From Salinibaculum litoreum (GTDB lineage: Archaea; Halobacteriota; Halobacteria; Halobacteriales; Haloarculaceae), in assembly GCA_009789175.1 (NCBI GenBank), contig CP046866.1, forward strand, positions 310,001-374,000: a stretch of 64,000 nt of DNA. The letters are read 5' to 3'. Below, piece after piece: positions 32,684 through 40,340 of this stretch. The position numbers and the translations under genes were made by a program. How positions within the stretch are numbered: position 1 is the stretch's first letter; each line of letters starts with the position of its first letter. The notes beneath the pieces were generated by a model. That model did not search any database. It worked only from the letters and a program-made list of their open reading frames with translations, and was not told where the DNA came from.

Positions 32684-33886
32684 ATGGCAGAGATTCGGAC
32701 CGACGTGAACCGTCCGGCAGTACCGATGGACGGGACCACGATTACGGCCGAGGTGGACGTGGAACCGGGGACGCAGTCGGTGGCTGTCCAGCGGCACATC
32801 GCGCTGTGTATCGACGCCAGCGGCTCGATGGCGGGGTCGAAAATCGAGCGGGCTCGTGACGGTGCCTCCTGGGTGTTCGGCCTGCTCGAAGACGACGATT
32901 ACGTCAGCATCGTCGCCTTCGACTCCGATGCTGAACTCGTCATGCAGCCCACTCGCTGGGGGGATATCGACCGCGAGGAGGCAAGCCAGGCCGTCGACGA
33001 CCTCTCCGCCGGCGGCAGCACGGACATGTTCGATGGCCTCCACACTGCCCAGCGCGCGCTTGAGACGCTGGATGTTCGCGAGGACGCCAGTGAGGGGACC
33101 CCCGTCAGACGCATTCTGTTGCTCTCCGATGGCAAGGACAAACACCACGACCCCGAGGAGTTTTGCGACCTCGCTATCGACATCGACGAGTCCGGCATCC
33201 GGGTCGAGGCCGCGGGCATCGGCGAGGAGTACAACGAGGACACCATCCGGACCCTGGGAACGACCGCCCGCGGCGAGTGGACTCATCTCGACGGGCCGGG
33301 GGACATCGAGGATTTCTTCGGCGAGGCCGTCGAGCAGGCCAGTTCCGTCGTCGCGCCCGACGCCGACCTCCATCTGGACGTACTGGAGGGGGTCGAAATC
33401 AGCGAGGTCTACCGCGCGCTCCCGCAGGCACAGGATGTCGAGGTCTACTGGGAGAACACCGAGGCCACCATCAAGCTACCTGACCTCATCGAGCGGGAAC
33501 ACCAGCGCGTCGTGATGAAGATTCACGTGCCTGCCAGCAGCGGCGAGGCGGGACGCGTCGACCTCGTGGACGTGACACTCTCGGCAGACGGCGAGACGGC
33601 GACGGACACTATCAGCGTCGAGTACACCGAGGACAACGGGAAACTCGCCGAGCACAACGAGGAGGTCCAACTCGACCACCAGCAGACGGTCGTCCAGACC
33701 GAACTCGGGAAAGGCAACGTCGAGGCCGCCGAAACCACCGTCGAAAAGATGACCACTATCCACGGCGAGGACACCGAAATCGTCCAGGAGGCCGAGCGAC
33801 AGACCGAACTGGTCAAGGAGGGCGGCCGAGCCGAGCGCAACCAGGCGACCAAAATCGTCAGCGACGACGAGGGCGTCCGGAAGTAA
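32684..33886 (+). CDS. von Willebrand factor A domain protein (cluster gene 1)
   Basis: 400 residues. vWA domain with an intact MIDAS: LCIDASGSMAG (Asp44, Ser46, Ser48), GGSTDMFDGLHTAQ (Thr) and ILLLSDGKDK (Asp). No signal peptide or membrane segment, so cytoplasmic. The C-terminal half is a beta-rich region (VDLHLDVLEGVEISEVYRAL style strands) then a helical tail with KTVEKMTT-like heptads and many Glu/Gln residues. The ATG at 32684 follows the purine-rich GGTGAGGGGT; a start at 32645 is possible. It is the first gene of a six-gene same-strand set (kinase starts 26 bp downstream). vWA proteins with PP2C and kinase genes are known as signalling triads in tellurite-type clusters; here it may be an adaptor or substrate. 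Confidence 0.9.
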   Translation: MAEIRTDVNRPAVPMDGTTITAEVDVEPGTQSVAVQRHIALCIDASGSMAGSKIERARDGASWVFGLLEDDDYVSIVAFDSDAELVMQPTRWGDIDREEASQAVDDLSAGGSTDMFDGLHTAQRALETLDVREDASEGTPVRRILLLSDGKDKHHDPEEFCDLAIDIDESGIRVEAAGIGEEYNEDTIRTLGTTARGEWTHLDGPGDIEDFFGEAVEQASSVVAPDADLHLDVLEGVEISEVYRALPQAQDVEVYWENTEATIKLPDLIEREHQRVVMKIHVPASSGEAGRVDLVDVTLSADGETATDTISVEYTEDNGKLAEHNEEVQLDHQQTVVQTELGKGNVEAAETTVEKMTTIHGEDTEIVQEAERQTELVKEGGRAERNQATKIVSDDEGVRK

Positions 33887-33912
33887 CTGACCCCGAACCC
33901 TCCCCGCTACTC

Positions 33913-35181
33913 ATGACACAGACACCCGATGCTGGCGACCTCGTTGCCGGCCGGTACGAGATACAACGCGAGGCCGGCCAGGGTGGTTTCGCGAAGGCCT
34001 TCGAGGCTGTCGACACTACGACCGGCGACACTGTCGCGCTGAAAGTCCCCAACTACGACGGCTCCTCGAACGACCCCGCGGTCATCGACGAGTACTTCCA
34101 GAAGGAAGCGACCACGCTTGGCCAGATACACGAGGCCGGCGGCCACCCCAACGTTATGACGCTGTACGACCAGGGGGAGGCCGACGGCGTCGACTACCTC
34201 GTCGTCGAGTACGTCGATGGCTACGAACTCGATGAGGCTGCTGACCGGATTCAGGACACTGATGGGGTGAACACGGAGAACGTCCGGAACACCGGTATCG
34301 CCCTCTGTGATGCGATGAAGTTCCTCCACGAGAACGAAATCGTCTACCGGGACCTGAAACCCGACAACATCATGACCACCCGCCGGGACGGCGAGTGGGT
34401 TCCGGTCCTCATCGATTTCAACACCGCGACCGGGTTCGACGAGAGCGGGCGGGCCGGTGACTCGGGAACGACGATTCTCGGGCCGTACAAGCCGCCGGAA
34501 GTCGCCGACGCCTCGGGGGCAGACAGCAGACAGGGGCCGTGGTCTGATGTCTACTCCATCGGCAAGATTCTGCTGTTCCTGCTTCGCCGGTCGGTCCCGA
34601 AAAAGGACGGTATCAACCCCCGAGATTTCGGTATCGACTGTGACCCCTACCTCGCGGGGATAATCGAGAAGGCAACCCAACCCGACTACGAGGACCGCTA
34701 TGCCAACGCGACGTCGATGAAACACGTCCTCCTGGCCAGAGACCCCAGTCCCCCGCCCAAAGCTCACGTGACGTACCTGCAGGCTGGGGACCGATATACG
34801 GTCTTCCCCGGCGATACCCTCGGTCGGCGATACGCGAAAGGGCCGACCCCCGCTATCGCTATCGAGGACGAAGAGGAGTACATCTCGACGGTACAGGTCC
34901 AGTTCGACATCGAGAGCGGGACCGGGTCCGCGTCGAATCGCTCCGGAGGCGACGAGCAGTGGGTGTTGCGCGACCGGAGTCTGAACGGGACCTACGTCCA
35001 GGCCGGCGATGGCTGGCAGCGCGTCCTCGGCGAGAGCGGGCGCAAGCGCCTGCGCGAGAAAGGCGAGGACCCGACCGACCGCCACGGGAAAGTTCCGCCG
35101 GAGACGTACCCCCTCTCTTCGGGCGACCTCGTCGCGCTGGTCCACCCGAGTTACGGCGTCACCTTCCAGTTCGAGGGATAA
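33913..35181 (+). CDS. Hanks-type Ser/Thr protein kinase with C-terminal FHA-like domain (cluster gene 2)
   Basis: 422 residues. Kinase domain ~10-280: Gly loop REAGQGGFAKAFEAV, VAIK-type VALKVPN (catalytic Lys), DYLVVEYVDGYEL (hinge), IVYRDLKPDNIM (catalytic loop with intact Asp and Asn), LIDFNTATG (DFG replaced by DFN), GPYKPPEVADASG (APE-like PPE) and SDVYSIGKILLFLL. C-terminal ~130 residues look like an FHA domain: VFPGDTLGRRYAKG (GR motif), WVLRDRSLNGTYVQAGDGW (S-x-N-G-T) and LSSGDLVALVHPSYGVTFQF. It should phosphorylate Ser/Thr and bind phosphothreonine. The PP2C gene begins just after its stop codon. Confidence 0.92.
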   Translation: MTQTPDAGDLVAGRYEIQREAGQGGFAKAFEAVDTTTGDTVALKVPNYDGSSNDPAVIDEYFQKEATTLGQIHEAGGHPNVMTLYDQGEADGVDYLVVEYVDGYELDEAADRIQDTDGVNTENVRNTGIALCDAMKFLHENEIVYRDLKPDNIMTTRRDGEWVPVLIDFNTATGFDESGRAGDSGTTILGPYKPPEVADASGADSRQGPWSDVYSIGKILLFLLRRSVPKKDGINPRDFGIDCDPYLAGIIEKATQPDYEDRYANATSMKHVLLARDPSPPPKAHVTYLQAGDRYTVFPGDTLGRRYAKGPTPAIAIEDEEEYISTVQVQFDIESGTGSASNRSGGDEQWVLRDRSLNGTYVQAGDGWQRVLGESGRKRLREKGEDPTDRHGKVPPETYPLSSGDLVALVHPSYGVTFQFEG

Positions 35182-35182
35182 C

Positions 35183-36277
35183 ATGCACTATGCTACTAAC
35201 TACGGCATCGGCGAGCGGAAACGACCGACCGGCATCAACGAGGACAGCATCGCACTCTCCGCCTTCGAGCAGGGCCACCGCGCGGGGTTTCGCGGTCAGT
35301 CCCGGACCGTCGAGGCGGGGGCAGACGACCCCGGAGACGGCAGCGACACCGTCGAGTTACCCGCCAACCGCTCGGCTGCCGCGTTCGTCCTCGCAGACGG
35401 TGCCGGAGGGCACGAGGCCGGCGACGTGGCCTCGTACGTCGCGACGACCATCATCTGCGAGGAACTCGCACCCGTCGCCATCCGGGCCGCACGCGCGGAC
35501 CCGGCAGCCTTCGGCGTGGACCTCGACCGGACGCCACACCGGCCGACACCCGCGGAACTGCGCCGCGGCGTCGAGGATGCCGTCGTCACCGCCCACCGCG
35601 CCATCCTCGCCAACGCCAACGAGAGCGGGACCGGCGCGTACACGACTGTCGTCGCTGGCGTCGTCGTCGACGGACAGGTCCACTACGGGTGGGTCGGCGA
35701 CAGTCGCGCCTACGTCGTCAACAGCGCCCGGGAGACAATCGAGCGCCTGACCAAAGACCACGCCGTTGTCGAGGACTTACAGGAAGAGGGCCGAATCGAC
35801 GACGTGGAGGCACACGTCCACCCCCGGGGGAACGAGATTACGCGCGCACTCGGTGGCCCACCCGGCGAGGACCCCGAAACCGCGACTGTCGCCGTCGACA
35901 CCGATACCGTGGACCTCTATGCCGAGGACACGCTCCTCGTCACGAGTGACGGCCTCGTCGACGCCCAGACCGATGCGCCCGACCTGTACGAGGAGTACGT
36001 CGAGAGCGACCGCAGTGACGAGGTCGCCGAGACGGTACGCGAGCGCGCGGTCACCGACGATGAGATTCGTGACGCGGTTCTCGATGGCGCGTCGCTCGTG
36101 GACGCGGCTGCGACGCTCGGCGAGATGACCAACGACCGCGGCGGGAAGGACAACTTCTCGGTACTCCTCCTTGCCGAAGGGTCCTTTCCCGAGACGCCAG
36201 CGGACCCGCCACCGCGGGATGTCGAGGTCGAGCGCGCCCTGGAGGACCGGCAGACGAAGATAATCCCTCGGGAGTAA
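35183..36277 (+). CDS. PP2C-family Ser/Thr phosphatase (cluster gene 3)
   Basis: 364 residues from the ATG at 35183, 2 bases after the kinase stop region, so translationally coupled. PP2C motifs: GERKRPTGINEDSIALS (first metal-binding Asp region), AAFVLADGAGGHEAGDVASY (DGxGG-type), VHYGWVGDSRAYVVN (GDSR), EDTLLVTSDGLVD (SDGL) and MTNDRGGKDNFSVLLLA (D-N motif). All residues expected for two-metal catalysis are present. It is a soluble phosphatase that would reverse the adjacent kinase. An insertion of ~40 residues after residue 30 (QGHRAGFRGQSRTVEAGADD) is atypical. Ends with a basic C-terminal RQTKIIPRE. Confidence 0.94.
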   Translation: MHYATNYGIGERKRPTGINEDSIALSAFEQGHRAGFRGQSRTVEAGADDPGDGSDTVELPANRSAAAFVLADGAGGHEAGDVASYVATTIICEELAPVAIRAARADPAAFGVDLDRTPHRPTPAELRRGVEDAVVTAHRAILANANESGTGAYTTVVAGVVVDGQVHYGWVGDSRAYVVNSARETIERLTKDHAVVEDLQEEGRIDDVEAHVHPRGNEITRALGGPPGEDPETATVAVDTDTVDLYAEDTLLVTSDGLVDAQTDAPDLYEEYVESDRSDEVAETVRERAVTDDEIRDAVLDGASLVDAAATLGEMTNDRGGKDNFSVLLLAEGSFPETPADPPPRDVEVERALEDRQTKIIPRE

Positions 36278-36437
36278 CTTCTCCGGGACTCCCTTTCCGA
36301 AGCAGACTTCTGTGTCGATAGCCCCCTGACCCATTCTCAGCTGGCTACCGACAGAACACGTGATGGCGACCCACACGCGGGAGACAGGACACTACCCGGG
36401 ATACGGACGAGAGTGGCATGCACGAACGGGACAACAG

Positions 36438-36446
36438 TTTTTTACA
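36438..36446 (+). promoter_or_regulatory. TATA-like element inside the cluster, before the zinc-ribbon/FHA gene
   Basis: TTTTTTACA is 24-32 nt upstream of the ATG at 36470, in the 192-bp gap after the phosphatase gene. This suggests that cluster genes 4 and 5 can be transcribed from their own promoter. Confidence 0.55.
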
Positions 36447-36469
36447 TCGGTCACGACTCCACCGATAGT

Positions 36470-37477
36470 ATGTCAGAGAGTACCAGTACGCTGGTCGAGT
36501 GCCCCGTCTGTGGGGAGGCGTTCGACCCGACTGCCGCGGGGGGATGGTGTACGAACTCGGACTGTGGGGAATGGCAACACGAGGAGGCCAATCTGCCGAC
36601 GGGCGAAGGTGAGGCTGCCGCGGGGACAGACGCTGACGCGGCCGATGACGACACCGCCGACAGGACTCCCACTGCTGACGCTGAGGAGACTGCCGACGAA
36701 GCTGCTGAGGACTCCGCAAGCGACCGGGCGGAGCCGGCTGACGACCCGACACCGGCCATCCGGCGAGTCCCCGACGCTGAGGTGGAACCGGCGGCCGACG
36801 ACAAGTCGGCATCCGACTCCGATGAACAGGCCGAGATAACCTGTCCGGGCTGTGCGGAGACGCTGGCGGCGGACGTGAACTTCTGTCCGTCCTGTGGTGA
36901 GGACGTGTCGGCAGTCGACCCGGGAGAGGCGACCGAGGAACTGACAGCCTGCCCGGCCTGTGACGAAGCTGTCGGCCCCGAGGCCAGCTTTTGCCCCTCC
37001 TGCGGTGAGGACCTCGATGCCCATCGGGAGTCAACGGCGCTGACAGCCTGTCCATCTTGTGAAGGGGATATCGAGCCCGAGGATAGCTTCTGTCCGTCCT
37101 GCGGTGAGAACCTCGACGCTCACCGCGAAGACGTAACTGGGACCGCCGACACCGCGGCAGAGACAGAGGAGACACCGGACTCACTGGTCCTCCGGACTCG
37201 CGGGGAGGAACTCACTGTCGAGGACAGCGACACAATCGGGCGGGAGCTACGCCGTATCGTCACCGACACCGGCGGCGAGGAGAGCGAGGCCGTCCGTATT
37301 CACCGCGAACACGTCCGGTTCGTCCGCGACGATGACACCTTCCAGGTGGTTGACCTCGGGCGCAACCCCACGCGACTCAACGACGACCGACTGGAGGAGG
37401 GCGACCAGGAACCTGTCGAACCCGGTGACGAACTCACGCTTTCCAACGTCATCACCCTCGCAATCGACGAACCCTGA
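36470..37477 (+). CDS. Zinc-ribbon and FHA-like domain protein (cluster gene 4)
   Basis: 335 residues. Zinc-finger N-terminus (Cys11, Cys14, Cys27, Cys32), a long acidic Ala/Asp/Glu/Thr-rich low-complexity linker (residues ~45-140), then three near-identical double-CxxC zinc ribbons, each of form CPxC-x7-13-FCPSCGE (spanning roughly residues 142-230). A C-terminal FHA-like domain has IGRELRRIVTDTG (GR), IHREHVRFVRDDDTFQ and DLGRNPTRLNDDRL (N-x-T-x-L-N). It should bind phosphothreonine and perhaps RNA or protein through the ribbons, serving as an adaptor. It lies 6 bp before the next gene. Confidence 0.88.
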   Translation: MSESTSTLVECPVCGEAFDPTAAGGWCTNSDCGEWQHEEANLPTGEGEAAAGTDADAADDDTADRTPTADAEETADEAAEDSASDRAEPADDPTPAIRRVPDAEVEPAADDKSASDSDEQAEITCPGCAETLAADVNFCPSCGEDVSAVDPGEATEELTACPACDEAVGPEASFCPSCGEDLDAHRESTALTACPSCEGDIEPEDSFCPSCGENLDAHREDVTGTADTAAETEETPDSLVLRTRGEELTVEDSDTIGRELRRIVTDTGGEESEAVRIHREHVRFVRDDDTFQVVDLGRNPTRLNDDRLEEGDQEPVEPGDELTLSNVITLAIDEP

Positions 37478-37483
37478 CAACGC

Positions 37484-38821
37484 ATGGATTTCCCCCGCAT
37501 CCGTCGTGAGTTGGCCGGGTCGCTCCGCCTGCTGTGGACGGCGGAGCTGTGGCTCTACGGCGGCGCTGTGACGGTACTTGCCGGCTTCATCCTCTGGGTC
37601 GGTGCGACCGGTGGGGCACTCGCCTACGGGGCCGACTTTGCCGGTATCGAACTGTCGGTCATCGAATGGTCCTCCGCCACGACCGTTGTCTTCGGCGTCG
37701 TGGCGGTTCTCTGGTTGCTCGCACCAGCGGCGCTGGTCTCCTATCTCCTCAGCCGGCGACTGACGAACGTCAGCGGGAACGTCCACACCCACTACCGGGT
37801 CCAGCACCCCTCGCTGCTTGTTGCGCCCTTCGTCGTCCTCTATGCCCTCGGCATCGCTGTCGCGGTTGGACTCGACGAGGTGACACCTGCGCTTGCTGGC
37901 GCGCTGACAGTCGTGGGTCTGCTCGTGTTGATTCGGACGATAGCCTATAGCTACCGGGTGTTCAGCCTCTCGGTGCCGCTTTTGCTGTATGCTGGCCTGT
38001 TCCTCTCGCTGATTCTGGTCGCGGTCACGATTCTCGTCGGTGCGGGGCTTGTCGCGGGCCGGCGGCCTTTCGTCGAGGCAGCCGCGGCCGGTGTCGGCGA
38101 CCTGCTCGGCACTGGTGTCATCGAGGATATCGTCCTCGGGTCGAGGACGGTCGGTCCGGTGACAGTGCCGACGCTTCCGGCGCTGACTGCGGGGCTCCCT
38201 GTCGGTATCGCGGTGCTGTATATTCTCGTCCAGTCGGCGTCCGGGCTGGTCGCCCGCCTGCGCAAGCCCGATGTCCCGCGGTCGAAGCTTCGGACGGGAC
38301 AGCGGTACCCTGCCTTCGCCCACCCCATCTCGGGGCAGTCAGCGGGCGATACCACCACCGCAGGCGACACGACGGTCAGTGACGGCGCTGGAACAGCCGA
38401 CAGCGGTGTCGACGAGTCGGCAGTGGCCGGAGCCGTCGGTAACGCCGGGGCCGGTGGCGAGGCAGTCGAGGCCAGCGATAGCGACGCGTCAGGTGACGAT
38501 GCTGGTCACGAGACCGAGGCTGACGACGCGGTGAGTCATACGCGAGTCTACACTGCGCCGGATGACGCCGACTTCGACGGGACCGTGCCCGGTGTCGAGG
38601 ACGTGCCGGATGCGACGCCCGCCGACGAATCCGGCGGGATGGGTCCCGATACAGAACTCACAGACGAGTATGGCGAGACGGCAGTCGCAGACGAATCCGA
38701 CGAGACGACTTCTGCTGACGACGCTGACGGCTACCGCTGTCCGACGTGTGACACACAGTTCGACCCGGACACGAACTTCGCGTACTGTCCGACCTGCGGG
38801 ACGGAACTCCAGCCCGAGTAG
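37484..38821 (+). CDS. Multispanning membrane protein with acidic linker and C-terminal zinc ribbon (cluster gene 5)
   Basis: 445 residues. The N-terminal ~260 residues contain about six to seven hydrophobic helices (WLYGGAVTVLAGFILWVGAT, VVFGVVAVLWLLAPAALVSY, LLVAPFVVLYALGIAVAVGL and others). A long Ala/Gly/Asp/Glu-rich cytoplasmic tail follows, and the end has a zinc ribbon RCPTCDTQFDPDTNFAYCPT-CGTE with CxxC pairs. Start ATG 37484, 6 bp after gene 4. The same ribbon type in gene 4 suggests the two proteins work together. It would anchor the phospho-signalling set at the membrane (inference). Confidence 0.85.
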   Translation: MDFPRIRRELAGSLRLLWTAELWLYGGAVTVLAGFILWVGATGGALAYGADFAGIELSVIEWSSATTVVFGVVAVLWLLAPAALVSYLLSRRLTNVSGNVHTHYRVQHPSLLVAPFVVLYALGIAVAVGLDEVTPALAGALTVVGLLVLIRTIAYSYRVFSLSVPLLLYAGLFLSLILVAVTILVGAGLVAGRRPFVEAAAAGVGDLLGTGVIEDIVLGSRTVGPVTVPTLPALTAGLPVGIAVLYILVQSASGLVARLRKPDVPRSKLRTGQRYPAFAHPISGQSAGDTTTAGDTTVSDGAGTADSGVDESAVAGAVGNAGAGGEAVEASDSDASGDDAGHETEADDAVSHTRVYTAPDDADFDGTVPGVEDVPDATPADESGGMGPDTELTDEYGETAVADESDETTSADDADGYRCPTCDTQFDPDTNFAYCPTCGTELQPE

Positions 38822-38884
38822 TGAGCGTGTCTCCCCCGCCAGCATACCGGCCAGGTGGTCACACGTTGCAGGAAACACAACACC

Positions 38885-38890
38885 ATTAAT
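38885..38890 (+). promoter_or_regulatory. TATA-like element for the pseudokinase gene
   Basis: ATTAAT is 23-28 nt upstream of the GTG at 38913, consistent with a leaderless transcript and supporting the GTG start. Confidence 0.45.
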
Positions 38891-38912
38891 GACAGTCGTA
38901 TAACTTGGAGAT

Positions 38913-40340
38913 GTGAATCCGCGCGACTCCGATACGGACAGTTCGTCTGCCATCGACGCGCTGCCCGGTTCTGAGAGTGCGCCCCCTGCCGTTCCCCGAC
39001 AGCCCCCGCTGAACATCATCGAGCAGGGACGAATCTGGCTCATCGAGGCCTACCAGCGGGGTGACCGGGACGGGGATACGTTTTCGACTCACGACAGTCA
39101 GATTGACGCCGTCAGGGCTGCCAAACGGAAGATGGACGACGACGACCACCCGTGTACCCTCCGCTGGGACGGCCCGGATAGCGTCGGGAACATCTACTGG
39201 AACCCTCTCTTCGAGTGTGTCGAAGTCCACTACGACGACCTGGTCGACGCCTGGACGGTCGTCCCCGCGGAGGGGACGTGTGCGATGGCGGCGTCTGACA
39301 CTTTTGAGGATATCTGTGAGCAGGCAAAACACATCCAGCGCGAATACGATTTCAAGACTCTCCACGTCTACGATGGAAATACACGACGCGTCGACGAACG
39401 CGACCATCGGTTTATCAGATACGACATCACGGATGCCGGCGTCCGGTTCGACCCCTCTCAGCTCGACCCCCGAACCACGGTCGCTGAGCAACCGTCTGAG
39501 GACGAGAGAACTGAGGACGAAGACACCGACGAGCCCTACGTCGGTCCGGCCAGCCCCAGCCGTCTCGGGGCGTCCATTCCCGACGTGACACGCGTCGAAT
39601 TTATCGACACTGACGGCATCCTGCACCGATACGCGACGCCGTGGGGTGACGGGACCGACGCCGAGATTCTCGCTATCTCCCGCAAACACAGCGACGACAC
39701 GCGCGTGCGAGAGGTCTTCGAGACGTGGCTCTCCCGGTGGGAGTACGCGGACGACCACCCCAACGTCGCGACGGTGTACGAATCCGGCACCGACCCGGCA
39801 CAGTGGGTCACACACCAGGCCGGCGAGTCGACGCTTGACTCCACGGGGCTCTCACTCCCCGTCTCGGAACGCCTCTCCATTCTCGACCACGTTGCTGACG
39901 CGGTCGACACGCTCGAAACGACGGGTGCTGGGCCAGTCTGTGGTCTCCACCCGAAGCGGATTCACCTCCACAACACCGGTCGCGGGTGGCGTGCGGCAGT
40001 CGCCGTCTGGGGTATCGAATGGGCAGTCCGGCGGGCGCTTGCCGCTGCCGAGCCGACTCCATTTACCGCGCCCGAACAGCTCGATGGGGTGCTCGAACCG
40101 ACGACATCAGTCTACCAACTCGGCGCCCTCGCGTACTGGCTGCTCTGTGAGTCGCCACCGTTCGGGACCGACGGAGACCTCACGGCAGCGATACGCGCTG
40201 GCCGTCACCGCCAGGTGAACCTTGTCGATGGTGTCGCGGCCGGTGCGAGCGATGTCATCACCCGCGCGCTCGCGACCGCCCCGAGCGACCGCTACAGGTC
40301 CGTTACGGTGTTCAATCGAAAACTCAGTAACAGCGTGTGA
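38913..40340 (+). CDS. Protein-kinase-like protein with degenerate catalytic residues (cluster gene 6, pseudokinase)
   Basis: 475 residues from a GTG. Residues ~30-170 form an alpha/beta domain with two repeated-looking halves (IWLIEAYQRGDRDGDTFSTH and YDDLVDAWTVVPAEGTCAMA). The C-terminal ~250 residues follow the kinase fold: EVFETWLSRWEYADDHPNVA, DHVADAVDTLETTGAGPVCG, then the catalytic loop position GLHPKRIHLHNTG (no HRD Asp) and the DFG position AVWGIEW (no metal Asp), but intact TPFTAPEQLDG, TSVYQLGALAYWLLCESPPF and RALATAPSDRYRSV. It therefore keeps the C-lobe without catalytic residues. It ends the cluster, 39 bp from the convergent acyl-CoA synthetase gene. Confidence 0.84.
   Translation: MNPRDSDTDSSSAIDALPGSESAPPAVPRQPPLNIIEQGRIWLIEAYQRGDRDGDTFSTHDSQIDAVRAAKRKMDDDDHPCTLRWDGPDSVGNIYWNPLFECVEVHYDDLVDAWTVVPAEGTCAMAASDTFEDICEQAKHIQREYDFKTLHVYDGNTRRVDERDHRFIRYDITDAGVRFDPSQLDPRTTVAEQPSEDERTEDEDTDEPYVGPASPSRLGASIPDVTRVEFIDTDGILHRYATPWGDGTDAEILAISRKHSDDTRVREVFETWLSRWEYADDHPNVATVYESGTDPAQWVTHQAGESTLDSTGLSLPVSERLSILDHVADAVDTLETTGAGPVCGLHPKRIHLHNTGRGWRAAVAVWGIEWAVRRALAAAEPTPFTAPEQLDGVLEPTTSVYQLGALAYWLLCESPPFGTDGDLTAAIRAGRHRQVNLVDGVAAGASDVITRALATAPSDRYRSVTVFNRKLSNSV

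Follow-up and report, generated by a model that had tools for sequence, protein, structure and literature searches.

A candidate phosphothreonine assembly switch in a haloarchaeal gene cluster resembling the Sulfolobus ArnA-ArnB module

Six open reading frames lie on one strand at positions 32684-40340 of the window, the whole 64,000-nucleotide stretch of DNA analysed here, which belongs to a haloarchaeal genome of 3.73 Mb. The question raised by this locus is whether these genes form one phosphorylation system, and which known system it would resemble. A first-pass annotation had proposed six same-strand genes of six types, and all six are found with the types it gave. We refer to them as A (vWA), B (kinase-FHA), C (PP2C), D (zinc-ribbon/FHA), E (membrane/zinc ribbon) and F (pseudokinase). 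Pfam matches back A, B and C and, in D, the ribbons; the C-terminal FHA domain of B falls just under the cut-off (E-value 0.0014) and that of D is missed. The features are as follows.

32684..33886, plus strand: A, vWA protein of 400 aa with ArnB architecture, the vWA within a beta-sandwich and a C-terminal helical bundle (Pfam VWA; ArnB 8s05_A; AF2; Foldseek)
33845..33862, plus strand: C-terminal tail motif ATKIVS of A with Thr389, a candidate pThr/FHA docking site (conservation in homologues)
33913..35181, plus strand: B, active-looking Hanks-type Ser/Thr kinase with a C-terminal FHA domain, 422 aa (Pfam Pkinase; invariant residues)
35183..36277, plus strand: C, PP2C-family Ser/Thr phosphatase, 364 aa (Pfam PP2C_2/PP2C; NCBIfam Stp1-like below the curated cut-off; invariant metal-binding Asp)
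36248..36268, plus strand: C-terminal tail motif RQTKIIP of C with Thr358 (family consensus [DE]RETVI), a candidate pThr docking site (conservation of T358)
36470..37477, plus strand: D, N-terminal zinc-binding module, three more zinc ribbons and a C-terminal FHA in an ArnA-like layout, 335 aa (Pfam DZR; profile matches; FHA R/N/T conserved)
37484..38821, plus strand: E, six-helix membrane protein with a long disordered acidic linker and a C-terminal zinc ribbon, 445 aa (AF2 model; Cys pairs; co-occurrence with B)
38534..38557, plus strand: linker motif SHTRVYTA of E with Thr353, a candidate pThr docking site (linker column identity)
38913..40340, plus strand: F, pseudokinase with a GTG start, 475 aa, judged to be outside the system (separate distribution; no catalytic Asp)

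Five genes inherited as a unit

Our survey covered 392 Halobacteria genomes, 53 of which contain B. Of 25 further genomes inspected in the window's own family, 21 have A-B-C-D-E contiguous and in this order; in the remaining four, E has moved elsewhere in the chromosome (three genomes) or D has moved together with E (one genome). A separate search with an E profile detected E in 39 of the 392 genomes, and B is present in all 39, including the four with E elsewhere, so that no E-positive genome in this set lacks B. The hypergeometric log10 p for the co-occurrence of B and E is -41.6, a value that ignores shared ancestry and derives from an E profile built from cluster members. A second family of genomes has the set rearranged as D-A-B-C with a second FHA kinase, and with a diverged E-like gene on the opposite strand. 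A-E form a real unit with co-occurrence beyond chance, and the strongest evidence that the unit is functional is that the set is kept through rearrangement and dispersal. Beyond the class, seven matches were obtained in 295 genomes of the phylum, all of them in the taxonomic order to which the window belongs. The genes flanking A-E differ between genera; those sampled are metabolic or unknown, and among the 20 families checked no output gene is common to the flanks across genera.

F does not belong to this unit. Near full-length F occurs in 16 genomes, eight of them without B, and in the other seven B-positive carriers it is on a different contig or a long way from the cluster. In the window F separates E from an acyl-CoA synthetase gene; since E directly adjoins that gene in several related genomes, F looks inserted. 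Being separately distributed and never linked to the cluster elsewhere, it was rejected as sixth member, and the cluster therefore comprises five genes. The first-pass annotation had read all six as one system and had named a gene-neighbourhood comparison across Halobacteria as the check. This comparison bears out A-E, and with them the proposed set of writer, eraser, reader and membrane protein, and leaves F unlinked. What had been said about F itself (a kinase fold without catalytic Asp) does hold: the HRD and DFG aspartates are missing in all eight aligned homologues, which makes F a true pseudokinase family. The family also shares an N-terminal region, conserved over about 180 residues and without Pfam match (38913-40340; loci L175-L181), and its kinase-like half resembles portions of many long haloarchaeal proteins.

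Bacterial relatives of kinase B (Gemmatimonadota and others; loci L022-L080) often have FHA-type and PP2C genes adjoining them. As no ArnB-like vWA is found near the kinase in the loci scanned, a bacterial counterpart of A-E was rejected. Separately, a kinase-PP2C pair of haloarchaeal type, about 41% identical, is found on a short contig labelled Phycisphaerae (L005), where a binning error or a transfer may have placed it.

Architecture of the five proteins

A matches the Pfam VWA domain (1.2e-14), and its MIDAS residues (DxSGSM, T113, D149), earlier described as intact, are invariant or nearly so in 28 homologues. The best sequence match in the PDB is ArnB (8s05_A; 9.5e-9 with the single sequence, 3.2e-22 with a profile), and the ArnB paralogue ArnE (5a8j) and a vWA protein of C. 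acidiphila (4fx5) are also near the top. The AF2 model (pLDDT 91.6) runs from two strands through the vWA domain and the remainder of a beta-sandwich to a C-terminal helical bundle, so that the ArnB feature of a vWA inserted in a beta-sandwich and followed by a helical bundle is present in A. Foldseek with this model returns 4fx5, ArnB and ArnE at the top ranks, the latter two at ranks 2-3 (ArnB at 5.5e-25). No ArnB_C match is found in Pfam at E<=1, and the Thr sites phosphorylated inside the helical bundle of ArnB (SIETT region, ArnB_C domain) have no counterpart in A. Its conserved Thr389 is a tail residue located where the bundle ends or beyond, unlike the ArnB sites; the mechanism is for this reason called Arn-like rather than proven Arn.

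D, with a likely start at ATG 36470, has four CxxC zinc-binding regions and a C-terminal FHA domain, in agreement with its earlier description as an FHA-like and zinc-ribbon protein. The FHA domain emerges from the family profile, which matches the GarA FHA (2e-5) and also Rad53 FHA domains, and the same profile matches the ArnA zinc finger (5.4e-5; 8s05_C, 5a8i). An N-terminal zinc finger with a C-terminal FHA is the layout of ArnA. The phosphate-binding residues (R/N/T) are largely conserved, the usual Arg being absent in four of 30 homologues and His replacing Ser in 21. There is also a weak match to TagH (6e-4).

In Sulfolobus, ArnC phosphorylates the C-terminal bundle of ArnB, after which the ArnA FHA domain binds tightly; the ArnA zinc finger loosely holds the unphosphorylated complex [PMC12852372]. 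The first-pass annotation knew of no described archaeal system made up of exactly these genes. This has to be revised, as ArnA/ArnB/ArnC are a close precedent by sequence and fold (PMC12852372), which renders TerY and type VI secretion the weaker comparators. ArnB-like structures have been noted in Halorubrum, where no gene set is described (PMC12852372), and we found no description of the A-E gene set in the literature searched.

Given these likenesses, A-E might be taken for the haloarchaeal orthologue of Arn, regulating the expression of archaellum (motility) genes and anchored to the membrane by E. The pairs A/ArnB and D/ArnA agree in sequence, fold and layout, and Arn also employs a kinase and a phosphatase (PMC12852372). 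Nevertheless we regard orthology as improbable: B has an FHA domain where ArnC has OB and TPR-like domains, and the ArnB architecture is widespread outside Arn (both PMC12852372). Moreover, the phosphatase is a PP2C instead of a PP2A, the sampled neighbours of the cluster include no recognisable archaellum gene, and only 53 of the 392 Halobacteria genomes contain B.

B was expected to be an active-looking Hanks kinase with an FHA-like domain. Its kinase domain is clear (Pfam 1.2e-29), the catalytic residues K44, E65, D147, K149, N152 and D168 are invariant in 21 homologues, and so are the FHA residues R305, S325, N358 and T360, despite the sub-cut-off Pfam score. C, which begins one base past the B stop codon, is the PP2C proposed for this place, with metal-binding aspartates that are invariant among homologues. 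In the second cluster type (L004, L006, L121) the PP2C has a C-terminal FHA-like domain of its own and is followed by the second FHA-kinase, which implies layered regulation.

E is modelled by AF2, at moderate confidence, as about six membrane helices, a disordered linker and a CxxC/CxxC ribbon. The Cys pairs are invariant in 22 homologues, consistent with the multispan zinc-ribbon protein described before, and the model has no match among PDB folds. E might be the effector of the system, a channel or transporter gated by FHA-pThr binding with A and D as regulatory subunits, rather than a mere anchor or sensor. It is the sole membrane part, is strictly co-inherited and has a six-helix domain without known fold. 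Against this, none of the other four proteins varies as much as E (23-39% identity to the window protein inside its cluster type), and neither a transport motif nor a fold match turned up, the model being of that confidence; we consider an effector role doubtful.

A shared threonine motif and the proposed switch

The tail of A, the tail of C and the disordered linker of E have a conserved T-x-[IVL]-hydrophobic motif in common. In A, T389 is conserved at a level of at least 90% (28 homologues), and the strict motif occurs within the last 25 residues of 39 of the 44 distinct proteins (ATKIV or TTVVFD) against 3.1% of background genes; the other five tails lack it. T358 of C is kept in 24 of 26 aligned homologues, the family ending in [DE]RETVI. 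Because position +1 is often hydrophobic and +3 varies, the C tail fits the motif loosely and rarely strictly. In the E linker, with a mean identity of 29%, the only columns above 70% are T353, R354, V355, Y/F356, P358 and P359 (91, 91, 91, 77, 91 and 77%). The island T353-R-V-F/Y-x-P is kept in all 24 distinct E proteins, the motif recurs in all 11 distinct diverged E-like proteins of the second cluster type (TRIF/TRIY/TQIF), unlinked E copies retain it, and relatives often have it duplicated as DDTAVFSP. None of the 39 distinct D proteins has the strict motif.

FHA domains are often selective at the position three residues past the phosphothreonine, frequently for a hydrophobic residue. The motif in A, C and E resembles ETTSVF, the conserved phosphosite of OdhI/GarA. 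These proteins are phosphorylated within it, and their FHA domain serves in docking and self-binding (PMC8546545, PMC2784874). The motif common to A, C and E is the new element here. On the simplest reading, B would phosphorylate these three, and its FHA domain and that of D would bind them. Other zinc-ribbon proteins of this genome were rejected as further targets, as none of those examined has the motif. In another genome (G229), three further zinc-ribbon proteins near a second kinase (L182:7357-11518) carry T-x-V-Y/F motifs (for example NNDTEVYTDD, DETSVYDPGG, DGTSVFTTDD), repeated in two of the three, which suggests more substrates of the same code.

Our preferred reading, with a probability of roughly 60%, is that A-E constitute an assembly switch which works through phosphothreonine in association with the membrane and is a haloarchaeal variant of the ArnA-ArnB module. 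It starts from what is observed, namely the architecture, the co-inheritance, the intact active and phosphate-binding sites and the conserved motifs. The phosphorylation events, the binding partners and the direction of the output we infer. B, a writer with its own FHA reader, would phosphorylate the motif in the A tail, the E linker and the C tail, and the FHA domains of the ArnA-like D and of B would bind the resulting phosphothreonines. The zinc ribbons of D and E may dock on the beta-sandwich/helical domain of A, as the ArnA zinc finger does on ArnB, and A and D would thereby be gathered at the membrane on E. C, whose own tail would draw it into this complex as well, would strip the phosphates and reset the switch. 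The most likely output, which we suggest tentatively, would be release or capture of A/D upon a membrane signal sensed through E. The candidate docking site differs from that of ArnB, as the ArnB sites (SIETT and nearby) are helical and do not match T-x-[IVL]-hydrophobic. The earlier term phospho-relay is thus right about the parts, a writer, an eraser, readers and a membrane protein, and less apt in the word relay, as the evidence points to an assembly switch.

We see about an even chance that this is a previously undescribed archaeal signalling system in which an FHA-kinase writes, and two FHA proteins read, one short phosphothreonine code common to a phosphatase, a vWA scaffold and a membrane protein without known fold, yielding a membrane assembly with its own off-switch. 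Most of what is known of Ser/Thr phosphorylation logic in archaea comes from Sulfolobus. If the reading is true, the ArnA-ArnB-type switch extends to Halobacteria and gains a membrane partner, there are three specific threonines to mutate, and the ArnB/Sec23-like core would seem to be an old phospho-assembly scaffold and not a motility part.

Comparison with known systems

That A-B-C belong to a stress or conflict system, as a vWA-kinase-PP2C triad which is TerY-P-like or linked to GAP1-N2, is very unlikely: triads of a vWA protein, a kinase with zinc ribbon and a PP2C are described in actinobacterial conflict systems (PMC7159879), but the genome has no TerD, A has the ArnB architecture and is no stand-alone vWA, PADLOC has no match for A, C, D and E and only generic kinase-domain models for B and F, and the sampled neighbours include no effector or GTPase. 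A defence system was rejected on the PADLOC result, and a link to Ter or tellurite because TerD is absent genome-wide and the sampled flanking families hold no Ter gene. The earlier statement that Ter and secretion genes are missing was correct, as the sampled neighbours include no secretion genes either.

The threonine-phosphorylation pathway of type VI secretion, PpkA/PppA/Fha1 (TagE/TagG/TagH), also combines a kinase, a PP2C and an FHA protein. It differs in its linked secretion apparatus: no secretion genes are recognised near A-E, where the sampled flanking families are metabolic or unknown. Neither an ArnB-like vWA nor a membrane zinc-ribbon protein is known to us from that pathway.

Haloarchaeal ESCRT Halo_FHA loci contain an FHA protein with a Ser/Thr kinase and a phosphatase (PMC10936438), whereas no Vps4-like gene occurs among the sampled flanking families here. 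An ESCRT link was rejected, since no linked ESCRT-III/Vps4 gene was found and Snf7/ESCRT-III has no match above the cut-off in this genome (a single sub-threshold Snf7 match lies about 53 kb past the window end).

The actinobacterial GarA/OdhI switch (PknG/PknB, Ppp) shares the kinase, the PP2C, an FHA reader and a phosphosite, ETTSVF, similar to the motif described here. There, the phosphosite lies in cis on the FHA protein, whereas here it lies in partner proteins (0 of 39 D proteins have the strict motif); the vWA and membrane zinc-ribbon proteins are absent from that switch.

Sulfolobus ArnA-ArnB, with the kinases ArnC/ArnD and the phosphatase PP2A, comes closest, as it parallels the ArnB-like A, the zinc finger and FHA of D, the Hanks kinase and the Ser/Thr phosphatase. 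In contrast to Arn, the haloarchaeal set has its five genes clustered, a kinase with its own FHA domain, a PP2C in place of PP2A, a shared T-x-[IVL]-hydrophobic motif in tails instead of helical SIETT sites, and, in E, an extra membrane protein that bears a zinc ribbon.
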